Shown here in pieces: positions 6,453 to 55,360 of a DNA stretch of 64,000 nt (positions within the stretch are counted from its first letter, which is position 1; the number at the start of each line of letters is the position of its first letter). A model generated the notes under the pieces. It was not told the DNA's origin. It saw only the letters and a program-made list of their open reading frames with translations, and searched no databases. The translations under genes and the position numbers were made by a program. The stretch is from NCBI GenBank assembly GCA_000697355.1, contig JNEN01001208.1, positions 124,001 to 188,000 on the forward strand. The letters run 5' to 3'. Origin of the DNA: Syncephalastrum monosporum B8922. Lineage: Eukaryota > Mucoromycota > Mucoromycetes > Mucorales > Syncephalastraceae.

Positions 6453-7782
6453 CTACTCGAGATCCCTTTCTATCCTCTTTTTGTGAGCCTCTATGCGCTG
6501 CAAGAAACTTGCATTAAAGCTTTCTGCCATGGCAAGATTGGAGCTGAGCGAACCATGAAAAAATTGGGTTGCTTCGCGTGACGAAAGAACGGCATCTGAC
6601 CCGCGCGGGATCATTTCTTCCTCAAAATCCGTCACCGCATCTGCGAGCGAGATTTCGTTTTGGTACACCTTTGTCAGGCCTTGCGCCAGTTTAATCGCAT
6701 CGACCATGGCGTGATTACCACCTACGTTCATAGTTCCCATAATGAGAAGGTGCCACAAACACATCTTGTTCATCTGATCGAGCATTACCTTCACCCCGAT
6801 TGGGCGTCATACAGTGCGCTGCGTCGCCTACAATGACCACACGTGGGTGCTGAGCACGGCTGTCTCGGAGTACGTTCGGATCTCGTTCGAGGAATGTGAT
6901 GGGCATCACCGGTGTGCCGTCGGGAATACTCTGGAAGAAATCGCGACTCCTTCCCTTCATGGATCGATTGGCCCAGTCTTTGAGCTGCTCCAGCCGTTCC
7001 TGATCGCTGTCGTAGGCAGGCTCCGTGTCAGCCAAACACGAAATACCAAACTGGACCGTGTAAGCCTGCTCTTGCTCAGGATTGTAGTCCACCACGCAAC
7101 TGAAACCGCGGTACGTTCGCTTATCGTCCTCAGCAAACATCATTGCCAACGTCTGTGAGACATCCGCAAAGGGTTTCCACTGTTCCTCCGTCATATGCAT
7201 GGTACCGAAAAGGGCCCGGACAGGGTTGCTCACGGTGCTCTCCAAGAAAGTGTCCTTTCCGAGACGGTGTTGGCAGACGCGCGATCGAGCACCATCCGCG
7301 CCGACGACCACGCTGCCCCGGGCTTGCGTGCCATCTTTGAACTTGACCGTGACGCCATCCTCGTCCTCCTCAATGGTTTCAAAGTCCTTATTCCACTCGA
7401 CGTTGATGTCTTCCATCAGCCAGTTCCGGAAGCGGTGGCGGTTGATGCGGATGTAACCTCCGACCAATTCGTTGAGGTCGAGTTTGGTGAGTATTTCGTT
7501 GGGATCGTTGTCTGCATTGACCAGCGCAAATTCGAGCTGCCAAGGATTCTTCGGGTTGACGGACACCTTTTCAGCCATGCTACTGTATTTTTCAGGGCCG
7601 AAGCTGCTTTTGATGTACGGTAAAGCGAACTGGACATTGATCGACCACCCCTGGGTACGACCAGTTGGGCTCGCGTCGCGTTCAAATAATCGGTAAGGTA
7701 CACCGTTCGTATCCAGTACATTGGCAAGCACCAGTCCAGCGAGACCGCCACCGATAATGAGAACAGGGTCATCCATCGTCAT
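6453..7782 (-). CDS. FAD-dependent aromatic-type monooxygenase
   Basis: A flavin monooxygenase of the p-hydroxybenzoate hydroxylase/UbiH fold, about 420 residues, using NAD(P)H, O2 and FAD to hydroxylate an unknown substrate. Visible motifs are the N-terminal Rossmann fingerprint VLIIGGGLAGLVLA (residues about 7-20), the DG motif VVGADGARSRV and the GD motif VGDAAHCMTPNRGEGGN. One intron of 67 nt (6722-6788) splits the GD motif and restores GEGGN; glutamine is more usual than the first glutamate. Exons are 7782-6789 and 6721-6453. There is no signal peptide or membrane anchor. The gene stands alone between two long non-coding stretches, so a cluster context is absent and the substrate cannot be inferred. 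Confidence 0.88.
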
Positions 7783-9830
7783 GTTTCTGTCGTGTTTACT
7801 TGATGTGTGTCAAAAAAAATCAGGCGTCTGTTACGAATTTATACTTACTATCCACGAATGGAAATTTCGCAGCTTGACGCACAGGCCCCGGTTGACCGCG
7901 CACGAAAAATTTGGGCTTTTACCGACTAAGCCTAGCTCACCATCATCTGATCTGAGCCGCCACATTTCTTGGCACCTAGCGATGTATAAACAACTTTTTT
8001 TATCGTCACGTAAACTTAAAACTACATGCCACAGTGACGTTATCTGCGATCTGTATGGCCAGATTAGGAAGCATATAATGCGATGCGTTCTCTCATCAGG
8101 AACACATAATTACAAGAGGCGTTATATGGTTTTAACTATTGATATAGTTACGTATGTATAAAAGCTACACTAATCTAGCTGAATACGGCACCGTTTTTGA
8201 CTTATGATCATGCAAGGAAAACCAAATAATGTTGACCAGAATGGAAGGGAATCTGTCTCAGGAACCCCATGATACCAGAACGATTGCGCAGCATATTTCG
8301 GCTGCGCTGCTGAGTTCTAATGCCCATCATGAGCCCGTATTGACAGTATGAAGCGTACCTGTGCCTTCTGACCAATCGATAAGTACCTAAAATTACAAGC
8401 GCCAAGTGCGCTTTAAAGGCTGGTATCGTCGAGTTCTTGAGGAAGGTCGTAGATGTATTAAGATAGTAAGAGGAGCGGGAGATAGTCATTGGTAGGATAC
8501 TATCTATTTCATCAAAGCTGCGACTGGTAGGAATCAATCGCTCGGTACCTTATGTGCAAGCATAGCACTAGATATAACCATAAGTCTCCCAGGAAATAAT
8601 TACTAAGTATGCAAACTATAACAAGAGGTGCGAGAATAGTTGAAAGTTGCACGATGTGCTGTTGGCCTCAATTTCTACGTGTCCCACACATTTGTTGTGG
8701 CTATTAGCCACCATATGTCTTTCAAAGGAGCGCCGCTACCTCACAGGGTGGAGCGCTTCATTCGTGATTAATCCTTCGAATGGTCACGGGTTAATTCATT
8801 CAAGTCCCTCATACCTGGCGATAGGATACATTGTTTCGTGAATCAGAATATCGGACGATTGATGATACAATCTAACAGACGCCTATATAATGGCTGATGT
8901 ATATTTCATAGCTTGGTTACTTTCATGTTTCGCTGATAAGTCAGTGTTTCTGCCCAACGTTTGAGTACACTCTAAATGCAATCATAGGTGTAGAGAATAA
9001 TGCTTTCCAACATCAGTATATAAGGCTGTAGATGGTTAAATTACAAGAATTAAGACCTGTATGACATGCTTAGATATTCTCATGAAAAAGACGATGAAGA
9101 GAGTAATAAATATGCTTAGCGTTAGGTAATCAAATGAGTAGCAGGATCCACCGAAGTTACAAATTAACTAGATGTGCCTGTCACGATACACAAGCGCTTT
9201 AGGAGGTGTGGGGGGAGATCTTTAATCTCCCCCCACGCACAGTCAGACTATTTGCCAGGTATCCTGGCTGCTAGAAGAGATAGGAATATGTACCTCGAAG
9301 GCGCCTGCACTTGAATTTGGCGTCGACAGCTTCACTGCCCAAGTCTGCTATCATTGAGTAACCCAATAATATCAGTAATGACATACATGAATGGGCGTCT
9401 TAGTAGATCAAGGTATGTTGCAGTTATTTCTCAAACATGTGGGGGCACTCATGAAAGATTGCCGTAGCTGTGTTATTGTGACCATCAATATCACTGCTTT
9501 CGCCTTTCAACCATGTATAATGCTTAGAAGCCCTACCTGTTCTAAATAGATTACTTTTCCTTCAGGGCTTATCGGTCACTCATATACTACAGGTACTATT
9601 ACTCAATAACCGTGCTTCACCACCTGGTTGATGTATACGGGCACGATGTGTAAGTGGTATAACAATGAAGCAACACTTTCATACAGTAGTAAATAGTGTA
9701 CTGCACGTGTACAAACACAACTCCACTTCGAAACTAACTTGACCAGATGATAGCAGTAAGTGAGTCGCACCTTCAGATACCACTGCCTTCCCTTTACCAA
9801 GGCCCAGCCATGATTATGTTCAATCGTAGA
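7783..9830. other. Long non-coding intergenic stretch
   Basis: About 2 kb of AT-rich DNA between the monooxygenase and the PPR gene. Open frames here are short and show no domain content. The only clear structure is the perfect hairpin at 9208-9236. Confidence 0.55.
9208..9236. repeat. Perfect 12-bp inverted repeat (hairpin)
   Basis: The arms GTGGGGGGAGAT (9208-9219) and ATCTCCCCCCAC (9225-9236) are exact reverse complements around the 5-nt loop CTTTA. The stem is GC-rich, unlike the AT-rich surroundings. It could be a cruciform, a remnant of an inverted-repeat element, or an RNA hairpin if transcribed. No gene end is adjacent, so a terminator role is not supported. Confidence 0.85.
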
Positions 9831-43670: not shown

Positions 43671-44854
43671 TCAGCACCTCCCCCCCCCCCATCCTCCTCT
43701 TTGCTCTTCTCCTCTCGTGTATTGGGATACTAGACTTACATAAAAAAATCACTGCATGCGTACTCTTTGTGAGATCTTCTTTCCGGATCACTTGTCGTGT
43801 TTGAAGAGACGTCTGCGCTTGCTTGTCTCTGATCACGCGTGCTCCTCATTGTGTTGGTGCGAGTGGGAAATATATGGACAGTGGTCCCGTGAGTGCTACA
43901 GTAAGCCTGAGCTACACTGGTTCCCCCATATTCAGTAAAGTGATCTTCCTATCATACCTTACGGAGTGATAAAGGTCCTCACTTCACATACCTTAGATGA
44001 AGCTGGTTTTCTATATGGACTGGATCCACCGCTGATGCCTGAAAAAGACAGCTTTGCCGTGACTGAAGAAGTTGTCACTTAATGGATATGAGACCGTTCT
44101 TCTCAATTTTATCTTTTTTGCTCGACGCTTTAGTACGTGTATACACATTCTAGGTCGATACCAGTACCAGATAAAGCTCCCGAAGCAATAGTTTACAGGA
44201 ATAATTTGACATAATGTGAATTCCGTTTTTCCATGAAAACCATCACCTACATGGACATATGTGATGATCATATAGCATTACCACGATGTTGTGTGCAACA
44301 AGACTATACTGAGCCAAGAAGCGAGAGTACATCCACGCGTAAGTTACCGCCGCGGGCATCTAAAACTGATACCTTTGGTCTTATGTAATGCTCAAGACGA
44401 TCGTCCGTGCTATTTAACACACACGCATATATATATCAGATACATAACTTTATCTAAAGTGAAGCTCGAAAGATCAGCATGCACGAAACGCGAGATTCTC
44501 TCATTCGCTCGGAATGAGCGGCCCGGGTCAACTGTCGCGGCACTATCACGTGATAACGAATAATTACAGTGATATGGGTTGCCAGCTGTGTCTGTTCCCG
44601 CGTATTCAACAAGAGATACATGCATACATTGGTATGACGTGATGTGCTTTATACCTGAAATATCTCGAAGCCCCGGGGAGTGGTAAGATGGCGCTTTTGA
44701 GGCCGCGCCCGGGATGCCCGCTTTCTACCCCGGAGCCGTTGACAGACGGGATTGTGAAACATGTCTAAATTTGGTGCCTCGATTTTAAAGGAAAAAACCT
44801 GGAATTCTTTCTGCGTATACAACTCTTTTTTTTTCTTCGTTTCTATACACTGCT
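43671..44854. other. Intergenic region and promoter of ERG2
   Basis: Starts with a C run (about 43681-43690). The last 200 bp before ERG2 are unusually GC-rich, with AGCCCCGGGGAG and GCGCCCGGGATGCCCG at 44670-44720, then a pyrimidine-rich leader. No gene. Confidence 0.5.
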
Positions 44855-45660
44855 ATGGCTCCCCAACCGAAAAACAGCAATAGCAACTGTAGCGGTAGCT
44901 GTGCTTCGCGCTTCATGACATGGCTGTCCATTATCACCGTTTTCCTGGCTGCTTGTATTGGGTTCGACCGGATCATGCCCCGCTTTTATTTGTTTGATCC
45001 CAAGGTGTTGCAAGCAGTCGGGCAGCGCAACATGGCCGCGTACGGCAACGACACGCATACCATGATTACACGTATTGCGGAGGAGCTCGACAGTATGTAT
45101 CCCGGTCATATTAATCTCAAGGAGGAATGGGTCTTCAACAATGCCGGCGGCGCTATGGGTTCCATGTGGATCTTGCACGGATCCTTTTCGGAATATGTCA
45201 TTGTAAGCCGCGAAAGACTGTATTTAGAGCCACTTTTAACATGAGACAGATTTTTGGTACTCCCGTCGGTACTGAGGGTCATACCGGCCGGTACTTGGTG
45301 GACAACTACTTTACCATTCTGGAGGGTGAGCAGTGGGCCTTTAGCCCTGGTCAATTAACCCGTGAGGTAAGAACTGGAAACGCCTTGCGGAAATCAGGTG
45401 TATGGTTTTGACTTGTTATACCTCTTTCTCAGGTCTACAAGCCCGGTGAGATTCACCATCTGCCACGCGGTCACTGCCAGCAATACAAGATCCCGGAGCA
45501 CCTGTGGGCCTTGGAATACTCGCGCGGTTGGATCCCTCTGATGCTCCCCTTTGGCTTCGCCGATAGCTTCTTCTCCACCGTCGATATGATCAACGTTTAT
45601 GACCAAGTCCGCATCTACGGCGGCTTGCTCATTAAAGAGCTGTTCAAAGGCAAGATCTAG
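44855..45660 (+). CDS. ERG2: C-8 sterol isomerase (ERG2)
   Basis: The ER enzyme of ergosterol synthesis that moves the sterol double bond from C8 to C7, related to the mammalian sigma-1 receptor. An N-terminal membrane helix ([18 protein letters not shown]) is followed by [46 protein letters not shown] | [60 protein letters not shown] and [20 protein letters not shown]. The family's glutamates and GTEGHTGR motif are present. Two introns: about 45201-45249 and 45366-45433. The stop TAG is at 45658-45660. Length (about 225 residues) is typical. Confidence 0.95.
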
Positions 45661-46844
45661 ATTACTTATAATAAAATCAAATAACTGCTACAATTAATAA
45701 GTGCACACCGCATTCACTTTCACCACCACACATATGTACACACGTATGGGACGTTTCAAGCATCTAAAGGTATAAGGAGAAAACATCAGCAAAAAAATAA
45801 GGTGTTATGTATAGAGCGACACGAAAAGTGAAGACGGTCGTTCTCATCAATTGCCTCTGGATGACCAGGTGAGGCAGAAAGGACGCTTACAGTACACTTT
45901 CCTTGCATAAGCTAGTTATGTTACTTATTTTAAAAACTGAGTACGAGCCAAATAAGCGATGGATATTAATGCTGGCCGGACACAGGGTATGCTGTTGTAG
46001 ACGAGATCTTAGTTCAGGGAAACATGATATAGAGGCTACTAAATTAAAAAAAGCTACAGTACAGTATATTGCTACCAACTCAATCGGTCAATATTGCATT
46101 CGGAAAACAGACGTTAATACGTTATTATTGCGGCAGATAATTTGCATAAAATAATCTCTCTTTCTAGAAGCTGAACAGAAGGTAGTTGAAAAATGAACGG
46201 GATAGGCTATATGAGTATTACCCTGAAGCTTAATCTCTTATCTCCAGTCAACGTGGATCAGAGAAAGTATCGAATACAGTCTATATGACTGTAGGCCACG
46301 TATATTGAATACCTTCAGATGAGTTGGGATTATCATTGGACAATATTTACTCGTATAATTACTGTTTCTGTTTCGTTTTCTGGGATCGATACGTCGTCAG
46401 CCTCTTGCTCGATCTCAACCTCCTTCCTACTGTCAAGACCAAGATTGTCTAATTTCATTCTCTCAAATTTGCTAGTGTCGTTAACCAAGCTATAAAGATA
46501 GCACTTTAATACCTGACACCGCTTCCGCGAAACACATATGACATCTATCTAGTATTTTATTAAGAAGGGCTTTTTTCTCCTTCAGTAAACGTAAATTACC
46601 TGATAGCCAAACAGGCCAGCAAATTCTCGACAGCGCCAAAAATAGTGATGCCGACCCCTATCAGGTCTTTCTTATTCTGCGTTCTTACGAATAACAATCG
46701 ACATGAGTATGTTTTATAAAAGGCAGCTGTTTCCTCTGGCCTCCACTTTCCTTTTCTTTTTTTTTTTCGTCCTTTTAAAGTCTTTTTCAGGTAAATATAT
46801 TCATACAGTGATGACGAAAGCATAAGCTGTTAAGAGCACCATAG
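45661..46844. other. Non-coding intergenic stretch
   Basis: AT-rich DNA downstream of ERG2 with short chance frames only. A poly-T run occurs at about 46758-46768. Confidence 0.5.
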
Positions 46845-47312
46845 ATGATATGACCCCCTCTCTGCCGTCAGTTCCTCCTTCGTGTGTATTAGTAAGCTCT
46901 CGGGTCAAAAGTGCATCATTGTAGACATCATTTAAACTGTGTACATAGCTGGCGGATTCGCATCCCTCCTATTCTTCTATCTCTTTTTCTGTTGCTTCCT
47001 CTCCCTTCTGTCTGCTCGCGCCCTTCCAAAAGGAATGCTTTTTTTTTTTTTGTTTCAGCTCTTTCCTCTGCGAGTGGGTGAGACAGATCTATGTGGACGC
47101 AATGGAAATGAGATATCAACATGCATTTCATTCCTGCCCCTTCTTCCCTTGTAGCTTCTCTTCCACGTTTGCTCCTCTCCTCACCTTTTGTCCGTTTTCG
47201 TCTCCATCCTAGGTCGTCATTAGCCGGTATCACCGTTAGAAATGCCCCCATCTTGTACATATGCATCCCGTACGCCAAATGTCTGTCCTACGCCCACCGG
47301 CAAGAAACAGCA
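46845..47312 (+). repeat. Dispersed repeat, copy C
   Basis: Third copy of the element at 4660-5130 and 15948-16405. It keeps CTCTGCC, TAGTAAGCTCTCGGGTCAAA, the pyrimidine tract, CTGCTCGCGCCCTTCC, poly-T, ATGAGATATCAACATGCATT, GGTATCACCGTTAGAAATG and the right-end block CGCCAAATGTCTGTCC...CGCCCACCGGCAAG shared with A. The first intron-like interval is intact (46892-46948, GTAAGC...CATAG). The second has lost its donor, and TTTCAG reads TTTCAT. Confidence 0.7.
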
Positions 47313-47755
47313 GATACTACTTTCAAAATGTGGCATAAGATTTATTCAGCCGCAGTGAGGTTATCGTCAGTACATTTTAGAGCTTGTTTGACGGCCCTGG
47401 CTTCGGCCGCTCAGATATGCAGAAAAGTGAGGTTAATGACGGTAATTAATTTCGGCATGTAAAAGCTATAGGCTAGTTAGTGTATATATGCATTTGTTTG
47501 ACACCGATGGATTCGCTACCGGATAAAATTGAATTTCGTAGATGAGAAACATATGGGTCCGAAACGACGACATGGTACTAGATACATGGTTTTTTATTCC
47601 GTATTGTATAAATATGTGTTCAATAAAAGACACAACTCACATACGAGCTTGCTGTCCCAGGCGGCTATATTGTGCTAGATCGTCGCCTTTCGGCAAGTCG
47701 CCTTAAAAGTATGTGCACTCTAGTGAGTCTGCTCCACCGGCTCCTTGTTGTCCGG
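47313..47755. other. Intergenic stretch, 3' flank of the repeat-peptide gene
   Basis: AT-rich, with AATAAA-like motifs. An AATAAA-like signal on the minus strand relevant to the peptide gene is not obvious. No gene. Confidence 0.4.
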
Positions 47756-48121
47756 CTAGGCCAGAATGCCCCGCTTGCCCGGTAACTTCTCCACAGGCTT
47801 CTGGTCCTCAGACTCGGCGGTGGCACCCACAGCACGCTTGCTCGGAAACTTCTCCACAGGCTTCTGGTCCTCAGACTCGGCGGTGGCACCGACACGACGC
47901 TTGACCGGGAACTTCTCCACAGGCCTCTGGTTTTCAGGCTCGGCGGCGGTAGCGGCCTGACGCTTGATCGGGGCTACATTCGCAGTGTCCTGGCTCTCAG
48001 GATTGGTGGCTAATTGACGTCTGGAAACTGGCATATGAGTGTCGGACACTGCTTGAGGCGCCGCATGAGATCCAGCAATGAGGAAAGCAGTGGCAATGAT
48101 ACTGAGAGAGGTGAAGCGCAT
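47756..48121 (-). CDS. Secreted repeat protein with Kex2 sites; putative peptide precursor
   Basis: A 121-residue intronless protein. Residues 1-20 (MRFTSLSIIATAFLIAGSHA) form a signal peptide with a likely cut before APQ. Dibasic Kex2-type sites occur at residues 34-35 (RR), 53-54, 74-75, 95-96 and 116-117 (KR), the last four exactly 21 residues apart. The spacers are related repeats: QAATAAEPENQRPVEKFPV, RVGATAESEDQKPVEKFPS and AVGATAESEDQKPVEKLPG, preceded by a diverged QLATNPESQDTANVAPI. This architecture is that of fungal kexin-processed repeat peptides, including alpha-factor-like precursors, and predicts three to four short secreted peptides. I do not recognise the peptide. A TATATAAAG box lies about 58 bp upstream. 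The in-frame ATG at 48193 would bury the signal sequence and overlap the TATA box, so 48121 is chosen. Confidence 0.75.
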   Translation of the reverse strand: MRFTSLSIIATAFLIAGSHAAPQAVSDTHMPVSRRQLATNPESQDTANVAPIKRQAATAAEPENQRPVEKFPVKRRVGATAESEDQKPVEKFPSKRAVGATAESEDQKPVEKLPGKRGILA

Positions 48122-48171
48122 GATGATTAGGAAATATGCTGGTGATCCGCAATGAATGCATGTGCCGTTGG

Positions 48172-48190
48172 AGCCCTTTATATATGTGGG
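48172..48190 (-). promoter_or_regulatory. TATA box of the repeat-peptide gene
   Basis: Read on the minus strand, ACATATATAAAGGGCTCC ends about 50 bp before the ATG at 48121. The position fits a core promoter with a very short leader. Confidence 0.55.
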
Positions 48191-51100
48191 CACACAGGTA
48201 TGAAGGTCGAAAGACTGTTTTTGGTCTGCTTCACGTGGATAACAGTTGATCTTCGAAAGCTCTGGTGCACTCGTCTTTTACCTGTATGAACACAGAGCCA
48301 CACAGTTACTATTGGATGAACTTGGTTTTTTTTACGCCATATCAATAAACACCTTCTATTAAAAGTTAAGCAGTGACCGCAAAATAAATATGCAGCACCC
48401 GCGTCTTTGTAGTGTGCAAGCAAACGCGCACCCCAAGGAAGGGGCAAAACGTCTGTATAGTCTCATCTGCACGATCTGGCGTTTCTTTCATGCATATAGG
48501 TACTTGATAAATATCTAAGCTCGTTCAATAAGAGGAAGTCGTGGTCTTGGAATAAAAGTAACAAACTAAAAGGTTTGTATCGTCACGTCTGTATGCACAC
48601 AACAGATCCATATCTCGTAAGGCTAACAAGCGTATAGGTACGTATAGCATCCTTTATATTTGCATCAACTGCACTCGTTCTAGTCTTTTTCAGCATGTTG
48701 CATTATGGTATTTGCTCGTTGTTTACAATGGCATGATCATATTAGAAACGAAGATTTACATCGGATATTGCCGTGGCAATCTGCCATGAACCGTTGTGAT
48801 CGTAATCGAAGAAGGAGTAACTTCATTTAAACGTAAACGATGGATGATGTGCACTGTAGATGTATGGGTAGTCTCGTATGTTTGATCAATTTATTTTTCT
48901 AGTTGTCTGAAGGCGGCCTAATTTCAATATTTAGACCGAAAAAAGAAAACTCGTGTATTCGTAAGTTGGCAAGGGCTGTTTCTGCTTCCTTTCTTAACGG
49001 CATACATATCGCATAGAAAACAGATGTGAAGACTATCATTAGTCCAAACAAGAACCCCCTAATCATTCTTGACCTAAATATATGTGCACGTACTCAGCCG
49101 AAGGAAAAGGATTATGATATGATAGTGAGACACCCGCTTAGTCTTTGCTATATACTAAAGGTCATTGAATACAAATGGGAGAGGAATAGTTCTTGCATAC
49201 GTATATGTGGCGATGTATATGCATAATAATAACGATCCGTTTATATGGTAATACTTCTTTCGGTAAGCTGGCTCTATTGCTTTCACGTATATGCATGAAA
49301 CATCCCATCACGCAGCGTATGCAACTAATGGCAAAAAACAGGATCCCCAATTGTTTGACAGATGAGTGCTTGATATGTATTAAAGGCGTCACATGGAAGT
49401 ATCAGATGCGCTCAGGCATACAATGGCACCATCAATAATCTGTGAGTTGCCCATGTTCTACTAGCGTGGAAATAAAACGATGGAACCTGAGTCCTATTTA
49501 TTTAGTCGCATCTATCAAACGCTGTACTGGAAGGGTCTACATAGTTTAGCTGGTATTTATGAGGTTATTAGAGGTGAGGACGGACATATTATGTATACAA
49601 ACAGTGAGAAATAGACATATCAAAAGCAGGTCGGTGGATGCATCTACACATACAGCTACCTTATAAACATTTAAATCGACCATCGCCTTATTAAAAGGGA
49701 ATATGCAACGTTTGCTTTTTAATTTGCTCCACATATTGTTATTTGTACGTTTTTTCGCCAACACAATATTGAAGAGGAAGACCGAATGTTTAATAGCGGC
49801 TTCAGCGCGCTGTCCTTGAGCACATATAGCGCACCGCTGCCTATATGTGGAAGTGACCTGCAAATCCTATATTTGGTTAGTCGCGCTTCTTTCATGAGGC
49901 GTTGTTGGCGTAGCGGCGTCTCCTGGCCGACATGCAGAAGACTGCCTTGCAAAAACGACAAATTCTCGTTTGAGTAGGGTATCGAATGGAGAAACATCTG
50001 AAGCAGGAGTCCAGATAAATCGAGCTGAAGAATGTTGTGATCACGGAGACGTGGAAGTCTTCAGGATACCTTTCTACCTGTTTTGCATGATTTGCGCATG
50101 CTTTTGTTGAGTCCTGGTGAGCATACGAATGAAATGCGTTAGTGCAAGGCATCTTATGGCTCGTAGAATATTGTTTAAATCGGATTTGGTAGTGCTTGGC
50201 GCTGGGAATATAACTGCTGTTTGTTTATATATGCAAGTGACGATATTCATTACATTCTGGTTTATGTCCATAACGGCCTTGTTAGTGCCTGTGTGCATAC
50301 ATGTCTGTCTCAGCAAAGTTACTTGGTGATTGATATAATGAATTAGATGTATGTTCTGGCACTCGTTCATGCATAAGACGAACGAAAACCTATGACCGGT
50401 ACATGGCATAGTACCTAGATTCCGTATTGCAACAAATTTCAGTGTAGTACATTACAGTAGTAGAATTAGGAACTGCAAAAAATACACTGCGTTCCTTTGA
50501 TCGGTGGTTAACACACACATGCTGTGCCTTGCAGTAAGAGGGATGACTGTTTATTTTGAATTGTTTGCCACATATTACGCTGCTCTGGAAATTCGCCTTG
50601 AGGGAAAGCTTCCCTTGATAGAAGGACGCAAACAAAATCCATCGCATACGAGCCCATAGTTGGTCTGGGTTAGTCACCCACACATTATGCACTATGTAAA
50701 ATTCACAAAAGTTTGCTTGTTTTGACTGGTATAACATCCGAGATGACCATTGACGACTGATTCGACATCGTACGAGAGACAGAGAAGTCAAATAGTATAT
50801 GGTAGTACTATCACACACGTTTGCTTGTTTTCCTAAGGGAGATGACTGACCTGGGGCAAAATACGTACGCACATGGAACATAGTCGGAGAACAAAAGCAT
50901 AAGACGCCCACTTGGCGTCTGCACTCCTTACATACCGGTATGTGATGATATAGACATGCAAAACAATAAAGTGTCTCATGTCACTACTCCATGTGCGCTG
51001 CTCTATCAATTTGATACATAAGGCATCAAACATGCCCCCCGTGTATGACCGAATGGTGTATATAGGGCCGACTTCAAGGGATGCCTACGTATTGCCGGTT

Positions 51101-51588: not shown

Positions 51589-54500
51589 TTACCAGTCTTC
51601 TTCGTCCGAGTAAACCTCTTCGCCACGCTTGCGGCGCTCCATGCGCTCCTTCTTCTTTTTGCGCAGCTCTTTGGAGGACAGTTTTTCTTTCTTTTTAACG
51701 GCCTTGATCGTGTTACCCTGGGCGTCCACCATATCCTCCTGCTCCTTCTCTTCGATCACGGTCGATCCCTGGCCAGAGACCCAGTTATGGCCAGATGCAA
51801 CAAGCTCACCGTCATCGACCTTCCAGACCTCGGTGCAGAGCGCCTCCGAGAACTCGCGGTTATGGGTTACAATCACGACACCGCCGCCGTATTCGCGAAT
51901 CGCACTCGCCAGTGCGCCGAGCGACTCGCGGTCGAGGTAATTGGTGGGCTCGTCCAAAACCAGCATATGAGGTCGGTTCCACATGGCCGCGCCAATCACG
52001 AGTTTGACCTATATTGTAAATCCATATCAAATTTTGACCTTGTAGCTCTGTTTGTCCGCTTACCTTTTGGCCACCCGAAAGACCGCGAATACGCGAGTGC
52101 GTCGCAAATTCAGCCTCGAGACCCACCTCGGTTAGATGCTTCTCAATCTCCTTTTGAGTGAGCGGACGGTTGAGGCCGGCCTTGGCGGCTTCCTGGGCAT
52201 CGCACTCGGCAATCTTTTTGCCAAAGCCCATCTGCTCGAGGCGCTGGCGAGAGATCCATGTGTTCTCGACCGAGGACTTTCCGACCCAGTGCACCTCGTA
52301 CTCGTACGACTGCTTGAGTTTGCGTCGACCAACGAGTTCCTCCACAATGCGCTTCTCTCCCTCAATCACAAAGTGCTGAGACATTTGCTTTTCTTCTTCC
52401 TCAGTTACTTGACGGTCCACCTAATAAGATCGTTGGTTGTGTTGGTGAATAATATAAGTAGCCAGTTTTTTTCGTACCTTTTCCAATTCTTCTCGGTCTT
52501 CACCGGTAGCATAGCGCCACTGGATGTACTCATTGGGTGTAATATCGAGATGCTTCTCGATATGGTGGAAAGCATGTTGGGCTACATAAGCAATGCGCAG
52601 GTTTGGGTGCTTCCAGACGGTACCCGTCGAGGGCTCAAGCTCACCCGTCAGCAACTTAATGAGCGTGGATTTTCCGGCACCGTTGGGTCCAATGACAGCC
52701 ACGCGCGATGCGAGCGAGCACTGCATCGTAATCTTCTTCAGCTGCTTGCGGTTCGAGCCGGGATACGAAAAGTCCACGTCCTTCATCTTGAGGATCGCTC
52801 GCTCCTTGGTCTTGACGCCCTCAAGCATACCAGGCTCGGGGAATCGGAACGTGATTTGGGCCGCCTCTAGCGAGTAGTAGGACTGCGCGCGGGGGACCTT
52901 CTTGACAAACTCGGACAAGTTACCCTTGTAACGCTTCAGCTTGTAGTTGCCCTCGTAATGGATGATATCTGAGCAAATGTGATCCAGGAAGCCCGAGTCG
53001 TGCGAGACGACGATGGAGGTCACGCTCTTCAAGCCAAGCAGGTAGTTCTCGAGCCAGGCCACATTGACGACGTCCAGATGATTGGTCGGTTCGTCCAGGA
53101 GCAAGATATCCGCGTTCATGAGCATGGCCCGAGCTAGCGCTAGCTTCATCTTCCAGCCCCCCGAGAGCGAGCCGATATTCTGGAATTTGACCATATCCTC
53201 GCTGAATCCGTATTCACGCAGCAGCTTTGCAATTTGGGCCTTGTCCTTCTCTACCACACCTGGCGAGGAGGCAATGAAATCGACCAGACCCGTTTCGGAC
53301 TCGGAACCATCAATGTCGTGCTCGACGTAGACAGTCTTTAGAATCGAGCGAGGCGGGAAGCCCTCTAGCTGCTCATTCGCGATGGCGCGCATCAGCGTCG
53401 ACTTGCCACAGCCGTTCGGGCCGCACAGACCATAGCGACGGCCACGCTTGAGACGCAACGCGGTGCGGTTGAGCAGGATCTTGGCGCCGTACGCGAGCGA
53501 GAACTCGCAGTTGCACAGTTCTTCGCCCTCCTCGTCATCCTCCTCCTCGACGGTGCGTGTCGCAACTGCTTCCTCACAGCTCGCCAAGGCCGCGAGCGCA
53601 AGCTTGGGCGCCTCCTCCGGGTCTTCCTTTTCGGGGTCGTAGCGGCCGGTTACCAGGAGCCAGGTGCCAGCGTTGGGCGCAATGGCATCGATCCAACCGG
53701 CACGGGAGAAATCCTTGGCAAGCGTGAGCGCGACTGCAAGCTCGACCATGTACTTGCGGACGGGACTAAAGAAGCCCTCGAGCTTGGTCTGCATCAGGTG
53801 ATCGAGCGTCTTGGTCACCTTGTCGCGCTTCTCCTGCTCGGTCAGCACGGTCTGGCCGCCGCCAGCTGCGCGGTTCAGTGTTGCCAGCGCCTTTTCGACC
53901 ATACCGCGGCATTCGGGGTCAGCTACGACGTCCTTGACGTGGTCGAGGGCGGGCAGAAGGATGGGCACGAACGGGGCGGCGACGTCGGGATCGTCGACGA
54001 GCTTGGTCATGTTGTCAATAATGACAGCCGACTTGCGCTTGATGGCGGTCTGACGCTCACGCAGGCCGCGCGCAAGGAGGGGCACCATGAGTGCCAAAGT
54101 GGCAGAGTCGACTTCCTGGACAAACGTGGTCGCGCCGAGTTGGTGGATCGTCTCGGGGACTTGGTCAGGGTGGTTGATGCACTCGATGACGGCCGGGATA
54201 AAGCGCTCGATATCTTTGTTGTCGAGCAAACCGCACGCCTCGGCCATGGTGCTGGTTGCGGCGCGCTTGACGTCCTGCTTGGTATCCCACATGCAGTCCG
54301 ACAGGGTGGGCACGAGGTCGGGAATGCACGACAGCAGCGGGAGCGGGTTCTTCTGCGCAAGCTGCGTGATAATGTCGAGCGCGAGCATTTTGGTCTGCCA
54401 CTTTTTCGAGTTCTCCAGACCCCCGAGGCAGAGGTGACAAATGTGCCGCGTCGCGGTCGGATTGACCCCGAGCGCAATGGCCTTGGCCGTGGTTGCCGCC

Positions 54501-54943
54501 AGGTCGCGCACGGGCGCCTGCTTATCGGCCTGCAGTTCGAGCAGAGGCGGAATGAGCGTCACGAGGTGGGGCTCGAGCGTGCCATGCAGCTCGCGGTTCA
54601 CCTCGACGAGTGCGCACGCCAGAGTCATGGCGCCTAGGATACCGGGGGCCTTGGGCTTCTTTGAGAACAATTCGGACGAGAGCACACTGTAGACGTGCGC
54701 GGCCTTGAGAGCGCGCACACCATAGTGGCGCACGACGTCGGCGACCTTGGTGGCTTCCTCTTGCCGCGCCTGGGGCGAATCGCTCGCAAGCAGCGCGTGC
54801 AGCAGCTCCTTGGCGTCGCTGGCTTCTTTTTCACCGATGCGTACGCGCTTCGTCTTTAGCAACTTCTCGAGGTTGCGGCGCTTGAGAAAATCGGTGGTCG
54901 CGGCAGCGCCCGAGGCTGTACTTGTATCATTCACTTCTTCCAT
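51589..54943 (-). CDS. TEF3: Translation elongation factor 3 (eEF3)
   Basis: The fungal ABC-F ATPase that binds the ribosome during elongation and helps release E-site tRNA. It has about 1,080 residues in three exons: 54943-52478, 52420-52064 and 52008-51589. HEAT repeats fill residues 40-360, followed by a four-helix region. ABC1 has Walker [10 protein letters not shown] (508-516), [10 protein letters not shown] (593) and [13 protein letters not shown] (612). ABC2 has GPNGAGKST (752), interrupted by the eEF3-specific chromodomain-like insert ([20 protein letters not shown]), then LSGGQK | VKLVIGA and [14 protein letters not shown]. The C-terminal tail is Lys-rich ([20 protein letters not shown]). 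Both introns lie in ABC2, one exactly inside the signature motif. Codon use is biased toward C-ending codons, as expected for an abundant protein. It is divergent from STE50. Confidence 0.96.
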
Positions 54944-55360
54944 GATATGATAGGGGTTTATAAAAATAAATAGAATGGAAAAAGAAAGAGATTTTTCTCG
55001 TGTGTTGGGCAGCGGAATTTGCTATGGCAATGTCCAGAGCAAGTATTTTGCATGGGTTTCACTAAAGGAAAAGGTCTGTTGCCCTTCGTCATCACCATGA
55101 CTTCTTAGTAGTATCGTGAGAGATGAAAAAAAAAAAGGAAATACTTCTAGGATCCAAGGGTCTACTTAGTTTGGTGGACAAATAAAAATATAATAATGAC
55201 ATGGAATGAATGTCATATATATTCCTCTGAGTGTGTGCAACATCAAAAAAAGTGCTGCACCTCTATAGGGTCCGTCTCTTTGCTTGCCTGCTTGATTGAA
55301 GGCGGTCTTTTGAATTGAGCTGTTCGGCTTTCTTTTTGCTTCGCTTGCCTTTTCTCGCAA
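54944..55360. promoter_or_regulatory. Shared divergent promoter of eEF3 and STE50
   Basis: The starts of eEF3 (54943, minus) and STE50 (55361, plus) are 417 bp apart. The interval has A-rich runs near 55125-55140 and CT-rich sequence just before the STE50 start. No unambiguous TATA box. Confidence 0.5.

Follow-up and report, generated by a model that had tools for sequence, protein, structure and literature searches.

KEX2-processed repeat proteins (KEPs) of fungi were defined in 2019 (Le Marquer, PMC6339444). A wider count made in 2020 yielded 7,878 KEPs in 1,345 of 1,461 strains, and 2,560 of these 7,878 proteins had no homologues (Umemura, PMC7329392). In Mucoromycota, 357 KEPs were counted in 38 of 39 strains, about nine per strain (PMC7329392); thus the suggestion in the preliminary description of the locus studied here, that a peptide gene in Mucoromycota would be undescribed in kind, is not supported. 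What KEPs do in early-diverging fungi, Mucoromycotina included, was left open (PMC6339444). Syncephalastrum is not named in the main texts of these two papers (PMC6339444, PMC7329392), and the supplements may list the gene or a relative. The literature was also searched for Syncephalastrum and, within Mucoromycota or Mucorales, for KEPs or peptide pheromones; judging by titles, a study of a single mucoralean KEP was absent among the matches listed.

KEPs of Coprinopsis cinerea are a second point of comparison. This fungus and other agaricomycetes have three kex2 genes, against one in ascomycetes with knockouts (PMC9769878). When six KEPs of C. cinerea were knocked out, axenic cultures looked unaffected, a result that the authors took as a hint at the biotic environment, and the KEP peptides detected in this fungus are linear, many of them pyroglutamated (PMC9769878).

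The DNA analysed here is a stretch of 64,000 nucleotides, further referred to as the window. It was taken to come from Syncephalastrum or a close relative within Mucorales. The EF3 gene of the window (52421–55021) matches a protein of S. racemosum with 96% identity at 95% query coverage, in agreement with the Mucoromycota host lineage assumed in the preliminary description. The next named species among the best 120 of 820 matches are Phascolomyces articulosus, Fennellomyces sp. and Lichtheimia ramosa (75–78%). CotH is expanded in Mucorales, and the genome contains 26 CotH stretches. The features of the open reading frame under study, further referred to as the precursor, are listed in Table 1.

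Table 1. Features of the precursor and its flanks in window coordinates
Feature	Position	Strand	Basis
Precursor ORF of 121 aa from ATG to TAG, read as a single exon	47756..48121	-	ORF reading
Predicted signal peptide, residues 1-20	48062..48121	-	crude hydropathy and small-residue rule
RR site, residues 34-35	48017..48022	-	translation
KR site, residues 53-54	47960..47965	-	translation
Peptide unit A, QAATAAEPENQRPVEKFPV, residues 55-73	47903..47959	-	translation, unit comparison
KR site, residues 74-75, followed by R76 (KRR)	47897..47902	-	translation
Peptide unit B, RVGATAESEDQKPVEKFPS, residues 76-94	47840..47896	-	translation, unit comparison
KR site, residues 95-96	47834..47839	-	translation
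Peptide unit C, AVGATAESEDQKPVEKLPG, residues 97-115	47777..47833	-	translation, unit comparison
KR site, residues 116-117	47771..47776	-	translation
63-bp tandem repeat array	47772..47972	-	TRF
Post-stop in-frame PDNKEPVEQTH and second stop	47720..47755	-	translation, unit comparison
TATATAAA, 63 nt upstream of the precursor ATG	48177..48184	-	motif scan
AATAAAAA, polyadenylation-like (AATAAA-like), 157 nt past the stop	47591..47598	-	motif scan

The protein opens with MRFTSLSIIATAFLIAGSHA, followed by 13 residues, the RR pair, 17 residues and the first KR pair; then come units A, B and C, 19 residues each and each followed by KR, and the C-terminal tail GILA before the stop. The signal peptide noted in the preliminary description was also predicted by our crude rule, with a hydrophobic peak of 2.60 on the Kyte-Doolittle scale over a 10-residue stretch; the rule is passed by 18 of 371 window ORFs, the precursor among them. 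By our reading, cleavage would occur after SHA and before AP, and the rule's own possible cleavage site is residue 16. KEPs are also defined as lacking a membrane segment; past residue 20 no hydrophobic stretch is evident by eye. The five longer peptides are all acidic, with pI from 4.05 to 5.08, in contrast to the mature protein before cutting, which is basic with a pI of 9.45.

The four KR sites described earlier at residues 53–54, 74–75, 95–96 and 116–117, exactly 21 residues apart, were confirmed by translation; the RR pair at 34–35 and the KRR at 74–76 had gone unmentioned. The spacing of 21 residues is due to the underlying tandem repeat, for which TRF reports a 63-bp unit, 2.8–3.2 copies, 86–89% matches and a score of 269–273. 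The separated peptides had been called near-identical. This is correct for the three at residues 55–73, 76–94 and 97–115 (pairwise scores 56, 49 and 81) and does not extend to the peptide preceding KR53–54. The score of the latter against unit A was equalled by 64 of 2000 shuffles, and it appears related to unit A weakly at best. When residues of the mature part were shuffled, at least four KR pairs arose in 172 of 100,000 shuffles, and four KR pairs spaced by 21 residues, in 0 of 100,000.

This architecture was compared with the definition of KEPs. As in the described KEPs (PMC6339444, PMC7329392), there is a probable signal peptide, predicted here by the crude rule where the definition uses SignalP, and at least three KR/RR fragments are similar, as judged here by pairwise scores where the definition uses FIMO. 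Cutting at KR and RR yields six fragments against a minimum of four; the repeats cover 3 x 19 of 121 residues, or about 47%, against a minimum of 15%; and a kexin is encoded in the genome. The difference from known KEPs is that the repeat of the precursor matches nothing found here. Given that KEPs are already known in Mucoromycota and that many of them have no homologues, the precursor can be regarded as one more orphan within a group already described.

The specificity of this layout was assessed by a KEP-style scan, in which ATG-ORFs of 60–500 aa were cut at KR/RR and at least three similar fragments were demanded. Among 381 ATG-ORFs of the window, the scan returned the precursor ORF alone, with two ATG starts. 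Nothing was returned from 31 further genomic loci, some of which overlap, with 749 ORFs in 107,867 bp, or from 30 order-2 Markov windows with 7,800 ORFs. When the repeat demand was replaced by a crude signal peptide and at least three KR pairs, 4 of 371 window ORFs passed, including the precursor, as did 2 of 682 ORFs from the other loci, both being N-termini of the two kexin-type genes. From 10 Markov windows with 2,495 ORFs, none passed. Hence, the combination of a signal peptide with KR sites is not unique, and it is the repeat that decides.

The genome was also searched for the processing machinery. Subtilase and P-domain stretches are co-located on contig 156 and on contig 166, and in both cases the best PDB match is Kexin (E-values 5.7e-51 and 1.1e-46, respectively). 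Therefore the genome has two kexin-type genes, in line with the Kex2-precursor layout proposed in the preliminary description. The N-termini of these genes (contig 156:54597–58277 and contig 166:107802–111413) differ. The genome further contains 24 stretches of the S10 carboxypeptidase family and six of the DPPIV_N family; at the family level, these include candidates for the Kex1 and Ste13 equivalents, respectively.

For expression, processing, secretion and role of the precursor we infer the following course. The signal peptide would direct the product into the ER. In the late Golgi, kexin would cut after RR35, KR54, KR75 (or R76), KR96 and KR117, and a Kex1-type carboxypeptidase would trim the basic ends of the released peptides. 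The expected yield is three similar linear acidic Glu/Pro-rich peptides of 18–19 residues, together with one peptide of 13 and one of 17 residues. The peptides predicted to end before KR are QAATAAEPENQRPVEKFPV (or its pyroglutamate form), (R)VGATAESEDQKPVEKFPS, AVGATAESEDQKPVEKLPG and QLATNPESQDTANVAPI. Two peptides begin with Gln, and pyroglutamate is possible there, as detected in Coprinopsis KEP peptides. C. cinerea KEP 497993 and related agaricomycete KEPs likewise yield short linear Pro-containing peptides, several with Gln after KR; unlike the precursor, the agaricomycete KEPs are conserved across agaricomycetes and were detected by mass spectrometry (PMC9769878). The likeness considered here is one of layout. 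By analogy with the linear peptides and the knockouts of Coprinopsis, peptides acting outwards would be favoured over a pheromone. In the best reading, the precursor would be a fast-evolving source of linear acidic secreted peptides, most likely active outside the cell and in a biotic interaction rather than in mating.

Relatives of the precursor were sought in several databases. In a set of 5.8 billion proteins, the 121-aa sequence had 110 candidates and 0 matches at E ≤ 10. A lengthened query of 247 aa, with the three units written three times, was meant to let longer relatives become candidates; 7,991 candidates sharing most words were scored, again with 0 matches at E ≤ 10. The search needs shared 5-residue words and is weak for short repeats, the window's own protein being absent from its results; a diverged S. 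racemosum orthologue could thus be missed. In the genome itself (assembly of 27.5 Mb in 198 contigs), one match was found at E ≤ 10, the gene itself, and no paralogue. A search of the same genome for a DNA pattern of two K-R-like codon pairs gave 35 + 54 matches versus 72 + 88 in the backward control and was discarded as useless. The precursor, which is repetitive and probably disordered, had 0 matches in PDB by sequence at E ≤ 10, and the window had 0 in Rfam at the gathering threshold. In Pfam at E ≤ 10 no family exceeded its cut-off; the single family listed was Apidaecin (PF00807; residues 53–68, E-value 0.31, 11.7 bits versus the cut-off of 23.1). This sub-threshold match is probably a chance likeness of Pro/Glu/Arg-rich sequence. 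KEP type P-4 (Rhizophagus, Diversispora, Trichomonascus) carries the Apidaecin HMM label (PMC7329392). At the depth searched, the precursor appears to be an orphan, its sequence being new as far as searched.

A single-copy gene with no homologues found may also be a young or decaying ORF, that is, an open stretch that was tandemly duplicated, has little or no expression and makes no working peptide. The region past the stop fits such a history. The stop adjoins PDNKEPVEQTH. Its score against unit A is 33, which none of 2000 shuffles attained; among 12,230 11-mers sampled from the window, a set that may contain repeats of the gene itself, 7 attained it. Its score is 22 against each of units B and C (equalled by 56 and 42 of 2000 shuffles, respectively). 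The stretch looks like a degenerate further, terminal copy of the unit, placed outside the present protein by the TAG stop. An intron reading of the precursor was also considered and is thought unlikely: one weak donor (GTGGGT) precedes the stop, three acceptors follow it, and none of the formal introns of 75, 102 and 111 nt has a CTRAY branch site. The 75-nt one would join the end of unit B to the post-stop copy.

The comparison of units and codon usage bear on the same question. Replacement and silent changes (proportions per site) are 0.22 and 0.17 between A and B, 0.08 and 0.13 between B and C, and 0.24 and 0.23 between A and C. As the two kinds of change are about equally frequent, the units show no sign that the peptide sequence is kept constant. 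Of the six frames, that of the precursor has the best codon score, at +0.17 bits per codon; all the others are negative. Its synonymous codon preference is weak, 0.03 versus 0.07–0.36 in five long window ORFs, and the values for the three reverse frames are 0.02, 0.01 and −0.24. Against a young or decaying ORF stand the signal peptide (by the crude rule), the 63-bp units that keep the frame with intact dibasic sites after each, a layout absent from the nulls, and the TATA box 63 nt upstream; TATATAA occurs 30–110 nt upstream of 21 of 2447 window ATGs. On balance we consider a young or decaying ORF unlikely, but the weak codon preference and the equal rates of change leave it a real share of the probability.

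The alpha-factor-like layout raises another alternative, a precursor of a self-signalling or mating peptide acting beside or before trisporic acid. Ascomycete alpha-pheromone precursors similarly contain multi-copy peptides with KR sites, and KEPs whose role was left open occur in Mucoromycota (PMC6339444). Unlike the alpha-pheromone precursors, the precursor has no Ste13 ladder: the peptides after dibasic sites start with QL, QA, RV and AV, and only QA, one of the four, fits the Ste13-type X-A/X-P start. Moreover, W, C and Y are absent from all 121 residues, so that neither an alpha-pheromone nor an ustiloxin-type core is seen, and the pheromone family of Pfam (MF_alpha) does not match. STE2 and STE3 each gave 0 matches in the genome, in searches run without a positive control. 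In Rhizophagus, a STE3 orthologue was found and a peptide pheromone gene was not; the pheromone named for Mucorales in the same paper is trisporic acid (PMC3834313). Carotenoid-oxygenase (RPE65) stretches number ten in the genome studied here, and nine of these exceed the cut-off of the family. Presumably, they fit ordinary trisporoid mating, which also counts against a mating peptide. No tie of the precursor to mating was found by the Ste13 ladder, the Pfam pheromone family or STE2/STE3 (STE2 and STE3 searched without a positive control), and we consider a mating peptide very unlikely. A lineage-restricted secreted linear signal peptide, perhaps pyroglutamated in some copies and acting through a receptor other than STE2/STE3 next to the trisporoid system, is likewise considered very unlikely. 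If it were true, a recent change in copy number would be marked by the stop that adjoins the degenerate terminal copy.

Precursors of the KEP type also feed the ustiloxin pathway (PMC7329392), and the precursor might accordingly be of the ustiloxin (dikaritin) RiPP kind with a cyclised core. Ustiloxin and dikaritin precursors share the KEP-type layout with it and differ in that Tyr is missing here. UstYa (DUF3328) gave 0 matches in the genome, in a search run without a positive control. The window has 75 stop-to-stop frames of at least 130 aa; 16 window ORFs were scanned, and none of them matched UstYa. This assignment seems highly improbable.

Units A–C are hydrophilic and Pro/Glu-rich (GRAVY from −0.69 to −1.10), as might be expected of a secreted disordered surface or cell-wall protein with KR sites that are incidental or partly used. 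A related possibility is a surface peptide like those of Rep1, a KEP of Ustilago maydis that gives rise to peptides active at the wall of the hyphae (PMC6339444). The dibasic sites stand at regular places after each unit, which argues against incidental KR sites, and the hydrophilic character would not suit surface activity. A surface role of either type is highly improbable.

We therefore favour, with fair but not full confidence, a KEP gene whose peptides act outside the cell in a biotic interaction and not as a mating pheromone. It is favoured because three similar units and five dibasic sites follow a signal peptide (by the crude rule), because the layout is absent from the nulls and comes with a TATA box and the best codon score of six frames, and because kexin, S10 and DPPIV_N are present and KEPs lacking homologues are common. 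It is weakened by the failure to find a homologue or orthologue, the weak synonymous codon preference, the units that show no constraint, the stop at the edge of an apparent degenerate copy, and the pheromone and RiPP genes (UstYa, STE2, STE3) searched without a positive control. The gene is new in sequence as far as searched and ordinary in kind. Even so, it adds one more example of an orphan KEP, with a visible change in repeat units. Little work has been done on the secreted peptides of early-diverging fungi, and a precursor that is small, present in one copy and clear in its predicted products lends itself to peptidomics.

About 5 kb around the precursor (window 45300–50300) contain no other stop-to-stop frame of at least 130 aa. 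The neighbours of this stretch are an ERG2-like gene (44789–45241) and EF3. The ORF at 50390–50980 (−) has no Pfam match at E ≤ 0.01. A FAD_binding_3 monooxygenase-like ORF is located at 6715–7809 (−), about 40 kb from the precursor, and is thus too distant for clustering with it. At least two further EF3-like proteins of S. racemosum, about 64–65% identical to the window EF3, are among the best 120 of 820 matches; hence several EF3 paralogues seem to be present in mucoralean moulds. Antisense to EF3, a 422-aa open frame occupies window positions 53369–54637 (+); it probably mirrors codon bias on the coding strand.
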